A stretch of DNA of 24,632 nucleotides from positions 1 to 24,632 of IMG/VR virus record IMGVR_UViG_3300032282_001259. One strand, given 5' to 3'. Numbering within the stretch: position 1 is the first letter of the stretch; every line of letters begins with the position of its first letter. The notes below the pieces were generated by a model. That model ran no database searches. It was given only the letters and a program-made list of their open reading frames with translations, and had not been told where the DNA came from. The position numbers were made by a program, and so were the translations under genes. This DNA comes from a virus. Positions 5,123 to 8,674 of this stretch are shown one piece after another.

Positions 5123-5584
5123 ATGATTAAAATTGGAATAGATCCTGGCCTGTCTGGTGCAATAGTTTTCTTGGAGTCAAACTCTCCTATTGAGTGGCAC
5201 CGGATGCCAACAATGAAGACGGGCTCGGCCAATCGGGTGAATGCTTCTGCTTTGGCTGCCAAGATCAGGCCGTACTGGCTATTGAATAAAAAGCTCCATG
5301 CGTATGTTGAGCTGGTGGGCAGTATGCCCGGCCAAGGCGTGGCTTCGATGTTCTCCTTCGGTCACTCAGCTGGCGTGATCCAAGGTGTGCTTGGTGCGTT
5401 TGAGATACCTGTGACGATGGTGACACCCAGTCAATGGAAGAAGCGCGCGGGTCTTACTGGTCAGGATAAGGATGCTTCAAGGACGTTGGCTATCCAGATG
5501 TTTCCTTTTTGGCGCGAGCTGGATCAAAAGGGAGCTGGCCAAGCGTATGCTGATGCAGCTTTGATTGCATTGCATGGTGATTAA
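5123..5584 (+). CDS. ruvC: RuvC-like Holliday junction resolvase
   Basis: A 153-aa protein of the RuvC/RNase H-like nuclease fold. The first strand carries GIDPGLSGA with the catalytic D7; E63 lies in 'HAYVELVGSMPGQGV', the usual place of the second acid together with a conserved glycine-rich turn; and 'AYADAALIA' supplies D144 near the C-terminus. The length is typical for short phage RuvC proteins. It would resolve branched DNA formed by the ERF pathway or before packaging. The ATG at 5123 begins the conserved first strand; upstream in-frame codons run into the repeat region. The ribosome site is weak (GAAAG). It stands alone, with a strong terminator 48 bases after its stop. Confidence 0.85.
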   Translation: MIKIGIDPGLSGAIVFLESNSPIEWHRMPTMKTGSANRVNASALAAKIRPYWLLNKKLHAYVELVGSMPGQGVASMFSFGHSAGVIQGVLGAFEIPVTMVTPSQWKKRAGLTGQDKDASRTLAIQMFPFWRELDQKGAGQAYADAALIALHGD

Positions 5585-5631
5585 TGTAGAATGGCATCGG
5601 CTTCTTTGCAGTTGCCACTCTCCTTTGTTTT

Positions 5632-5663
5632 AAGCCCCGAGCTAACCCCTTGGGGCTTTTTTT
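5632..5663 (+). terminator. Intrinsic terminator after ruvC
   Basis: AAGCCCC (5632-5638) pairs with GGGGCTT (5652-5658) and is followed by a run of seven T. The GC-rich stem and T run make a standard rho-independent terminator for ruvC transcripts, and separate ruvC from the structured RNA region. Confidence 0.85.
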
Positions 5664-5665
5664 AT

Positions 5666-5680
5666 ATTAACAGTGTTAAT
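5666..5680. promoter_or_regulatory. Operator-like palindrome, copy 1
   Basis: ATTAACA-G-TGTTAAT is an odd-centred perfect inverted repeat, 26 bases upstream of the phased promoter at 5706. The same half-sites recur at 13780-13795 and 18174-18189, always in gene-control regions, and the sequence after it (GTGAAAAACTT) resembles the flank of the other two copies. Confidence 0.6.
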
Positions 5681-5705
5681 GTGAAAAACTTTTTTTCGTA
5701 GGGTA

Positions 5706-5743
5706 TTGACATTTGTTGATATTTCCTGATACAGTTCGATACA
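5706..5743 (+). promoter_or_regulatory. Phased double promoter upstream of the RNA region
   Basis: A perfect TTGACA (5706-5711) is followed after 16 bases by GATACA (5728-5733). Ten bases later TTGATA (5716-5721) is again followed after 16 bases by GATACA (5738-5743). The stretch is built of four similar 10-base units, so the two promoters are one helical turn apart. The second -10 puts the transcript start near 5750, exactly where the first strand of the long RNA stem begins (5749). Confidence 0.6.
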
Positions 5744-5748
5744 GCTAG

Positions 5749-5969
5749 GTGTGGAAACCGATGCAATTAGAGCCGTTAATGAAGTCCCGACCCCGACTGG
5801 GGTAGCGCGTCAGCCACAAGCTGAAGTGTTTTTCCACCGGGGTTTCATTAACGGCTTTTTTGTTTTTGAGACTGGGATTGTGTGTCGGGTTAGCGCCGGC
5901 ACCTCCTAAGAGGACGAAATGCTAAAAAACACTGCTTCATGTGAGCAGTCCCAGTCTCACCTTCCACAC
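5749..5969 (+). ncRNA. Candidate structured RNA, domain I (three-way junction)
   Basis: GTGTGGAA (5749-5756) pairs perfectly with TTCCACAC (5962-5969), closing a domain with two long arms. Arm 2: 5771-5789 with 5838-5856, 19 pairs (13 perfect, then two G-U and four more), carrying hairpins ACCCC/GGGGT (5790-5803) and TCAGC/GCTGA (5810-5824). Arm 3: GAGACTGGGA (5868-5877) with TCCCAGTCTC (5949-5958), enclosing GTGTCGG/CCGGCAC (5882-5902), CCTC/GAGG (5902-5913) and ACTGCT/AGCAGT (5931-5949). No convincing protein frame exists. The predicted transcript start coincides with the closing stem. I cannot assign an Rfam family; large ornate phage RNAs such as GOLLD or ROOL are of similar scale but identity is not claimed. 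Confidence 0.6.
5771..5866 (+). terminator. Terminator-like arm inside the structured RNA
   Basis: The 19-pair arm (5771-5789/5838-5856) is followed directly by TTTTTTGTTTTT, which has the form of an intrinsic terminator and could release a small RNA of about 115 bases. A competing pairing exists: GTGGAAA (5751-5757) with TTTCCAC (5831-5837), crossing this arm as a pseudoknot or replacing it. It could therefore be a terminator/read-through switch; this is inference. Confidence 0.45.
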
Positions 5970-6290
5970 GCAGCCGTCAGAGCGCGTTAGCTAATGGCCT
6001 GTATGGGCTGAACTCAAGAAACACAGAACCTCGGTGTGACCCGCACCTCCAAGTAGAGCAATCGAACGGAATAAACAAGGATGTCGTAAAGACAAATACC
6101 CTAGTACGCTGGGAGTTGATCGTTAAGGCCGGTGCAAACTGACTTTATCGGGATTTCAGGGGAGGGCGGCTTGGCTGGCCGGTAGCTCACTTAACAACTG
6201 GGCAAAGCTCCTTGATAAAGAGACGTTGGTCCTTTAGCCTCCTGTAGGGGAGGGAGGGTCAACGGGTAAGAGGGCTTTTAGTTGGTAACA
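5970..6290 (+). ncRNA. Candidate structured RNA, 3' domains
   Basis: This gene-free stretch continues the run of inverted repeats. CAGCC/GGCTG (5971-5975/6006-6010); GGTGTG/CGCACC (6033-6047); TGTC/GACA (6082-6094); CCC-AG/CT-GGG with a TACG loop (6099-6113). Immediately after that comes a long stem AGTT, GTTAAG, CCGG (6114-6132) with CCGG, CTTAAC, AACT (6179-6199). Next is CGTTGG/TCAACG (6224-6229/6259-6264) enclosing CCTCC/GGAGG. Several stems abut, suggesting stacking. No clear terminator follows except a short TTTT at 6276-6279. It may be one long RNA with domain I or a 5' leader of the next operon. Confidence 0.5.
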
Positions 6291-6296
6291 TAACAG

Positions 6297-6326
6297 TTGA
6301 CTTGTGGTTTATTCATGAGTTATATT
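6297..6326 (+). promoter_or_regulatory. Putative promoter of the early/replication operon
   Basis: TTGACT (6297-6302) and TATATT (6321-6326) with an 18-base spacer form a good sigma70-type promoter 20 bases before a strong AGGAGG ribosome site and the first ATG at 6346. It would drive the long plus-strand operon independently of the RNA region. Confidence 0.6.
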
Positions 6327-7740: not shown

Positions 7741-8039
7741 TTCACACAGACGAAGACGATGAGTTTGAGCGTATTGCTCATGAGGCAAAGATCAAGGGTC
7801 AACCTTACTACTTTGAGCCACACCCAACCGATTCAGAGAAACTAATCTTTAGAAAACCATCCCGCAAGTTAGATGACGATGACATTCAAGACTACGTTCG
7901 CCCTTGGGTAGGGCTGACGAATGAGGAAATTGCAGAGTTTGATACTTGGCACGACAACAGGGAGGAAGAAGTTGGTTGGTGTAACCCCTCAGAAATCGTG
8001 GCCTACATTGAAGCCAAACTTAAGGAGAAGAACAGATGA
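7737..8039 (+). CDS. Unknown 100-aa acidic protein with WVGLT tail
   Basis: The N-terminal half is strongly acidic (IHTDEDDEFERIAHEAKIKG; LDDDDIQDY). The C-terminus has 'RPWVGLTNEEIAEF' and 'AYIEAKLKEKN', the same module as in the 126-aa gene two genes upstream, with the two parts about 30 residues apart in both. ATGA overlaps on both sides. Function unknown; the shared module may be a protein-interaction tail. Confidence 0.7.
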   Translation: MIHTDEDDEFERIAHEAKIKGQPYYFEPHPTDSEKLIFRKPSRKLDDDDIQDYVRPWVGLTNEEIAEFDTWHDNREEEVGWCNPSEIVAYIEAKLKEKNR

Positions 8040-8674
8040 GCTACATCGTTGCATCTCTGCCCCCCATCAAATGCTTTGTTCGTAAGGAGTTCTTGTATAA
8101 CTTCCAGCAGGGACATGGCGAGCTGGAGCCGGCCATCTGGGTCAGCCTCAAAGCCCTGCGCGGTCAGGTGTTCCGCATTGAAAGCTTACTGCCAGCCTAT
8201 GGAGCTTTGTACGACAAGCTTCCCATCCATGCCTATGTTTGGAACAAAGAGGAAGGCATGGATGATCTACCCATTGATGTTTTGCAGCTGTGGGACTGCA
8301 TGGGCTACCGCTTCACAATCATTGAGAAGATTGGCTTGCGTAACCTTGGAGTGAAGTTCTTGAGTAAAAGCAAACATTGGCACTTCGGGCGCTATCTGTT
8401 TACTGTGGACTTCTGTGCTGAAGGTATGGACTTGGATACAGGATTCACAGAGCAGGCCGAGGAACACAAGTCTTTTAACTTTATTGCGCTGGACAATGGC
8501 CAGTTTGCTTGCCAGCCTAACAATCGGTGTTTGTGGTACGACCAGAGCCTGATTCCAGCTGAAACAAAGTTTCCAGACTTTCAGGCGGCACAAAGACTTT
8601 GGACTGTGGACGGGACGCGCAAGTGGTCGGCCGGTGATGATTGGTTTTACGATATACAGGAGAAAACCGGATGA
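8036..8674 (+). CDS. Conserved phage protein, 212 aa, unknown function
   Basis: This matches a widespread phage hypothetical with the features 'ASLPPIKCFVRKEFLYNFQQ', 'GHGELEPAIWVSLKAL', 'LPAYGALYDKLPIHAYVW', 'LQLWDCMGYRFTIIEK' and 'LDNGQFACQPNNRCLWYD' in that order. The length is as expected, so it is intact. It is rich in aromatic residues and has no visible enzymatic motif. ATGA overlaps join it to both neighbours. Its regular presence in phage early regions suggests a core function that remains unnamed as far as I know. Confidence 0.8.
   Translation: MSYIVASLPPIKCFVRKEFLYNFQQGHGELEPAIWVSLKALRGQVFRIESLLPAYGALYDKLPIHAYVWNKEEGMDDLPIDVLQLWDCMGYRFTIIEKIGLRNLGVKFLSKSKHWHFGRYLFTVDFCAEGMDLDTGFTEQAEEHKSFNFIALDNGQFACQPNNRCLWYDQSLIPAETKFPDFQAAQRLWTVDGTRKWSAGDDWFYDIQEKTG

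Follow-up and report, generated by a model that had tools for sequence, protein, structure and literature searches.

What occupies the gap between the ruvC-like gene and the replication operon of this phage, where a preliminary description of the DNA had noted nested inverted repeats, no credible coding frame and a candidate large structured RNA? In the window, by which we mean the whole stretch of viral DNA analysed (24,632 nucleotides), positions 5744-6276 are a conserved structured RNA of about 530 bases that consists of several modules. The lack of a coding frame is upheld. The ORF list of the window contains no ORF of 60 codons or more overlapping 5585-6308, and the 3' core of the RNA has no coding signature: the lengths of most indels are not divisible by three, and no codon phase is more variable than another. 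A conserved reading frame, which would have refuted the RNA, is thus not found. The surroundings of the RNA and its promoters are as follows.

5126-5584, + strand: upstream gene, RuvC-like Holliday junction resolvase (phrog_1770, E=1e-35)
5632-5658, + strand: terminator of the ruvC-like gene, a 10-pair stem followed by a T-run, which separates the gene from the RNA
5706-5735, + strand: sigma-70 promoter of the RNA, TTGACA-18-TACAGT (10/12 matches)
6297-6326, + strand: second promoter, that of the downstream operon, TTGACT-18-TATATT (promoter match)
6346: ATG of the first gene of the downstream operon

The promoter of the RNA is a fixed element: across 145 homologous loci its second hexamer ends a median of 12 nt upstream of the loop sequence called a below (quartiles 12-13). 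Given this constant distance, the transcript is expected to begin at the first hairpin, P1. The predicted start near 5742, just 5' of P1 (5744), is derived from the promoter position, without transcript data, and replaces the start at 5749 that had been suggested initially. The second promoter is present in 69% of the relatives that carry the window's core, and is not above chance in those with other 3'-domain types. Further downstream, 8036-8674 encodes a 212-aa protein with a match to phrog_3704 (E=8e-76), a phage auxiliary family that carries the label ferredoxin.

Is this a known RNA? A tRNA search of the window found none. Rfam covariance models gave no match to the region at curated gathering thresholds, in agreement with the initial remark that it could not be matched to GOLLD or ROOL; at E up to 5 only rimP, mir-191 and similar models appeared, with scores far below gathering. 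The full RNA (5744-6276) is absent from Rfam, and a literature search found no paper describing it, though a published description elsewhere cannot be excluded. A blastn search with the whole region against isolated phages and plasmids returned only two weak, distant relatives. Relatives were found instead with exact DNA patterns in IMG/VR, in four productive scans and a fifth for the motif of module M1. The pattern GCAGCCGTCAGAGCGNGTTAGCTAATGGCCTG retrieved 18 contigs, GGGAGGGTCAACGGGTAAGAGG 50 and TCGGYGTGACCCGCRCCT 73, chance matches included; a 20-base stretch from the most common form of the 5' module retrieved at least 120 contigs and the M1 motif at least 120 phage contigs. These scans place the window's 3' core in about 50 other phage contigs; for the 5' module the number is at least 120. 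The counts are lower bounds, as pattern scans catch only sequences that keep the pattern and two of the sets are incomplete. Six matches to TCGGYGTGACCCGCRCCT (L083, L087, L092, L093, L101 and L104) were dropped as apparent chance matches in coding DNA, and a match in the cultured phage DSL-LC05 turned out to reflect a shared coding gene and not the RNA.

The RNA opens with a compact module in which a hairpin at the very 5' end is joined to a long, terminator-like one.

5744-5764, + strand: P1, hairpin at the RNA 5' end; the homologous P1 covaries in alignment A3
5749-5756, + strand: loop sequence a, GTGTGGAA, complementary to both a' and a'' (permutation tests)
5769-5855, + strand: P2, terminator-like hairpin with inner stems 5789-5803 and 5807-5829 (z -5.9)
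5831-5838, + strand: a', which pairs with a across P2 to form a pseudoknot
5856-5867, + strand: U-tract TTTTTTGTTTTT, directly 3' of P2 (P2 ends at 5855, TTTTTT starts at 5856)

The long arm described earlier (5771/5856) is P2: its 5' strand runs from about 5769, its 3' strand ends at 5855 with the U-tract behind it, and the minimum-energy fold gives it 21 consecutive pairs. In the homologous P2, 19 pairs are 98.7% paired, with both-sided changes at 14 of them, and at one pair UG is the commonest state. For the 5' module as a whole (24 pairs, 47 aligned sequences) pairing reaches 98.3%, and 118 cells are changed on both sides compared with 25.6 in shuffled controls. The pseudoknot is likewise established. 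The element a' lies inside the loop of the P2 stem, which gives the segment order a, P2-5', a', P2-3', U-tract; an exact a/a' match of at least six bases is present in 150/150 loci, and the mean match length is 7.55 against 5.04 +- 0.08 when partners are permuted, over 49 different a sequences. A handful of loci probably have a true a/a' pair other than the longest match. All 150 loci have a stem of about 12 or more pairs with a T-run immediately behind it. Because the search anchors included T-runs, this set is in part bound to contain them; loci obtained by the core pattern alone also show the T-run. A covariance model built without the window (R1) matches the window at 5744-5861 with E=1e-4 and the distant siphovirus MW202545 with E = 5e-8. 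With a G+C-containing stem and a U-tract directly behind it, the module meets the structural criterion for an intrinsic terminator, and it looks like such a terminator crossed by a pseudoknot; that transcription actually terminates there is inferred. In four loci (L031, L036, L051 and L167) a third 5' module, type C (CAACGGATTGGTAACCCGTTGTAG...), which R1 does not match, replaces the usual one, and in the first three it stands upstream of the window's 3' core.

The same loop sequence has a second partner.

5962-5969, + strand: a'', TTCCACAC, alternative partner of a (permutation tests)

This element lies 3' of the U-tract, just before the 3' domain, and is complementary to a plus part of P1. 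The stem between 5749-5756 and 5962-5969, GTGTGGAA/TTCCACAC, which had been described as an 8-pair closing stem and is indeed present, is this a/a'' pairing. The a/a'' match averages 5.53, compared with 4.42 +- 0.12 permuted; restricting the set to a single sequence for each a type (n = 33) gives 5.39 and 4.35 +- 0.19, the largest permuted value being 4.97. The permutation tests preserve composition, not the full phylogeny, a concern that the non-redundant test answers in part. The effect is present both with and without the intervening module M1. The signal is weaker than that of a' and is missing in some recombinant-looking members. Since a/a' and a/a'' share bases, both cannot fully form together in one molecule. 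We regard the competing partner as established, and a switch from one pairing to the other as an inference. That the closing stem rivals a pseudoknot, that the 5' part resembles a terminator and that the RNA has multiple modules had all escaped the preliminary description.

Between the U-tract and a'' stands an optional element.

5868-5958, + strand: M1, an independent, optional module with outer stem 5868-5880/5946-5958 and hairpins GGGTTAGCGCC and ACACTGCTTCATGTG

The arm that had been reported at 5868/5958, GAGACTGGGA/TCCCAGTCTC, is found as its outer stem. This stem is free in sequence, with a mean of 11.8 pairs in 125 instances against 6.5 permuted, and the inner hairpin covaries. Because the loops GGGTTAGCGCC and ACACTGCTTYATGTG defined the search pattern, they are invariant by construction; that does not apply to the covarying flanking stem. 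The model R2 matches the M1 of the window at E=2e-18, but the window is in its training set. M1 follows the 5' module in 44/150 loci, and also occurs alone in other intergenic sites, often between a sigma-70 promoter and a start codon (e.g. L128, L155 and L177). It is rare in bacterial genomes (7 contigs in one search, 2/100 genomes in another), where solitary copies are seen in a few beta- and gammaproteobacteria, and it is absent from Rfam. M1 could be a mobile hairpin, or else a leader element that acts like a riboswitch or binds protein. M1 is often enclosed, as in L114, L116, L143 and L200, by a second stem, also conserved, that contains an internal loop, ACGCATGGGG...CCCCAGCCGT; this outer element resembles one more intergenic RNA module repeated among these phages. 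In Vreelandella rituensis (L217, near 3589) M1 lies within another dense, apparently non-coding stretch; the same sequence recurs in two rumen/gut MAG contigs (L216 and L218), probably through contamination.

How well is the remainder of the RNA supported? The fold of 5740-6300 has z = -4.9, with -5.9 for the 5' hairpin and -4.5 for the 5868-5958 arm, while the 3' core (5970-6268) is not more stable than its shuffles (z about 0 and -0.5). Folding energy therefore backs the first half only, and the 3' structure rests on covariation, in the following elements.

5974-6018, + strand: D1, first hairpin of the 3' domain, stem 5980-5982/6013-6015; 95.8% paired, both-sided changes at 3/3 pairs
6030-6050, + strand: conserved hairpin GGYG-TGACCCG-CRCC, 6033-6036/6044-6047; 100% paired, T-A to C-G in 14/40
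6076-6214, + strand: long-range helix 6076-6081/6209-6214, which encloses hairpins 6083-6093, 6167-6181 and 6185-6203
6224-6276, + strand: 3' hairpin 6224-6229/6259-6264, conserved G-tracts 6247-6266 and the end of the core; 83% paired, both-sided changes at 2/6 pairs

Taken together, the seven helices of the core (31 pairs; 40 sequences, alignment A1) are paired in 96.1% of cells compared with 81.8% after shuffling, and 166 cells are changed on both sides against 46.6 expected from shuffling. When the partner is slid by one to three columns, pairing falls to 29-41%. Covariation of this strength here and in the 5' module bears out the initial proposal of a large structured RNA. The long-range helix and its three enclosed hairpins are 98.7-100% paired, with both-sided changes at 4/6, 2/3, 1/4 and 3/5 pairs, and the helix appears as CAAGG/CCTTG, CAGCG/CGCTG or CAAGA/TCTTG. 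G-U pairs are frequent in the conserved helices (UG in 20 and CG in 19 sequences at one pair), and their commonness in the core and in P2 points to RNA, not DNA. Some members lose entire sub-hairpins and keep the remainder. The stems had been followed as far as 6264; the RNA itself extends to about 6276. G positions in the 3' hairpin are invariant or nearly so in alignment A1. At 6247-6266, GGGGAGGGAGGGTCAACGGG, the G-tracts are almost invariant in the 40 core sequences and the loop bases vary (A to T, L102 and L105), a pattern compatible with a conserved RNA G-quadruplex. A long-range TGACCC/GGGTCA pairing suggested by RNAalifold was rejected, as GGGTCA varies in L102, L103 and L105 with TGACCC unchanged; the local hairpin 6224-6264 compensates in L102 and L105. 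Mosaic joints are visible: L024 and L080 have D1 swapped for an unrelated hairpin, and the core of L016 is truncated and joined to the SD of the following gene.

The modularity goes further, as several unrelated 3'-domain types follow the same 5' module. By sequence motif there are at least five, among them the window type, the CGTACTCC/CGGACTCC types and the CACGAGCAAGC type. In L003, L118, L152 and L296 the 3' domain directly behind the 5' module is the Betaproteobacteria-1 RNA (Rfam RF02932). The first of these, siphovirus MW202545 (2994-3248), has a five-tRNA gene cluster followed by the 5' module and this RNA; the hypothetical proteins annotated over the RNA are probably spurious, as in MW202484 (L002). 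The first SD-ATG ORF lies a median of 458 nt downstream of the U-tract (5th percentile 234). In the non-window types there is no promoter signal before this ORF (7.24 compared with 7.25 shuffled), and only 2/133 loci have a simple terminator between RNA and ORF, which together indicate that the RNA of these types runs into the mRNA as a long leader. In the window subtype, with its conserved second promoter before the operon, the RNA may have become largely independent.

The carriers, many of them water-borne, look like virulent (lytic) phages with the RNA in their replication/recombination region. A tyrosine integrase (PF00589) is found in 0/40 carrier records, and the 5' module occupies one place in 37/40, the extra matches being weak, on the opposite strand and at the same place; we consider both the lack of this integrase and the single copy established. 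The 5' module was found in 0/300 genomes of the order of Curvibacter sp. CHRR-16, in a search with stricter filters and no positive control. The genes on the upstream side are mostly those for exonuclease, RuvC, primase and replication. Those downstream vary among phages, and the best-represented family accounts for only 4/51.

What might such an RNA do? We tentatively interpret it, with confidence a little short of even, as a promoter-proximal leader that heads the early operon of a virulent phage and carries a conditional terminator. With a terminator-like element around +115 and a 5' strand free to pair with either a' or a'', a conditional terminator is the simplest reading, and the flanking recombination and replication genes support the early-operon role. 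According to this model, the RNA would be transcribed at the start of the early operon from a strong sigma-70 promoter of its own, and the 5' module (5744-5867), an intrinsic-terminator hairpin locked by the a/a' pseudoknot, would act as a conditional gate, at which polymerase either halts at the U-tract, leaving a short RNA of about 120 nt, or continues. On read-through, the M1 hairpin and a'' would emerge, a'' could capture the 5' strand so that the pseudoknot is broken and the long form closed, and the large 3' domain might then fold as transcription proceeds into the early genes. As a'' is made only after the U-tract, it cannot itself prevent termination there. The purpose, gating or tuning early transcription, is inferred. 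The downstream genes count against a leader, as they are not conserved and a cis-regulator would often keep its target; in the window subtype the operon has its own promoter and does not need the RNA as its leader. A large, conserved 3' domain swapped among unrelated types also looks like more than a leader.

The second promoter of the window subtype, 3' domains that are both conserved and exchangeable, and the lack of conservation of the downstream genes make a trans-acting role almost as likely. Here the RNA would be a stand-alone phage noncoding RNA, an effector, decoy or scaffold, whose 5' module provides expression and 5'-end stability and whose 3' domains act on host or defence targets. 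The terminator upstream of it, its own promoter, the separate downstream promoter of the window subtype, its invariant unpaired bases and its single copy per phage fit this view. In an oligomeric version, a/a' and a/a'' would be intermolecular contacts similar to the kissing loops through which ROOL and GOLLD, phage RNAs of similar size, assemble (PMC12286853); no homology to either was found, however. A conserved terminator-like U-tract in the middle would be odd for a single long RNA, and 131/133 loci are without a simple terminator at the 3' end. An unlikely alternative, in favour of which speaks the place at +1 of the early transcript with a terminator-like element right behind, is an antitermination leader whose nascent 5' module binds RNA polymerase and renders it terminator resistant, at its own U-tract first. 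HK022 put RNA alone is described as suppressing pausing and termination in early phage transcription (PMC9378689). The size, pseudoknot and large 3' domain found here are unlike put as described, and no sequence link is seen, although homology is untested. Two sites complementary to a single loop, whose sequence takes 49 different forms, might also recall an antisense immunity RNA of the P4 CI/P1 C4 kind, in which pairing of a with a' and a'' shuts off transcription in the immune cell. We judge lysogenic immunity very unlikely, since no carrier record has the integrase, no lysogens appear among the 300 host-order genomes, searched with stricter filters and without a positive control, and Rfam gives no C4 match. 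Slimmer still is the chance of a DNA-level element, such as a replication origin or recombination hairpins, or of a fortuitous cluster of inverted repeats. The adjoining recombination and replication genes would suit such an element, but the helices retain G-U pairs, the orientation of U-tract and promoter does not vary, and the shuffled and slid controls fall far short of the observed covariation; with the absence of a coding signature, DNA hairpins, a protein and chance are rejected.

The conditional leader, our preferred reading, predicts a short and a long product and competition of a' and a'' for a, which can be tested in vitro without the host. Large phage RNA classes are few and their functions open; in this RNA the start is placed with precision, the modular layout is clear and covariation supports most of the length. 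It is possible, at somewhat less than even odds, that this RNA represents an undescribed superfamily of modular virulent-phage RNAs, in which a common 5' pseudoknotted terminator with two competing partners drives 3' domains that are swapped like effector genes. If true, a switch made of RNA alone would be coupled to RNA effectors that can be exchanged.

How does this RNA compare with known systems? HK022 put RNA resembles it only in position, as a structured RNA with which an early phage transcript begins; put is small and is not known to have a pseudoknotted terminator or a large exchangeable domain. In the P4 CI and P1 C4 immunity RNAs, one sequence is complementary to two sites in the same transcript, as a is to a' and a'' by the permutation tests, but those RNAs belong to temperate elements and the carriers here are without the integrase. 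The likeness to GOLLD and ROOL raised at the outset holds for size and phage origin and not for homology by Rfam models. GOLLD is a large, ornate phage RNA of similar scale with one conserved and one variable half (PMC12286853). Here the plan is reversed, the 5' module being shared and the 3' domain changing; there is a terminator-like pseudoknot at the 5' end, no covariance-model match at gathering thresholds or at E up to 5, and no tRNA in the window, the distant siphovirus MW202545 being the only relative with tRNAs. ROOL shares phage origin, pseudoknots and a similar size (659 nt for ROOL env-120, about 530 nt here), and differs in architecture, in the absence of a covariance-model match and in that the window has no tRNA island. 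The window RNA is not filed as a member of either class. The Rfam model of Betaproteobacteria-1 spans only 120 nt, includes neither the 5' module nor M1 and does not match the window's 3' domain, yet in four relatives that RNA is the 3' domain behind the same type of 5' module. That one 5' module is repeatedly joined to different 3' domains, an orphan Rfam family among them, suggests a single system of which several unexplained phage RNA motifs are parts.
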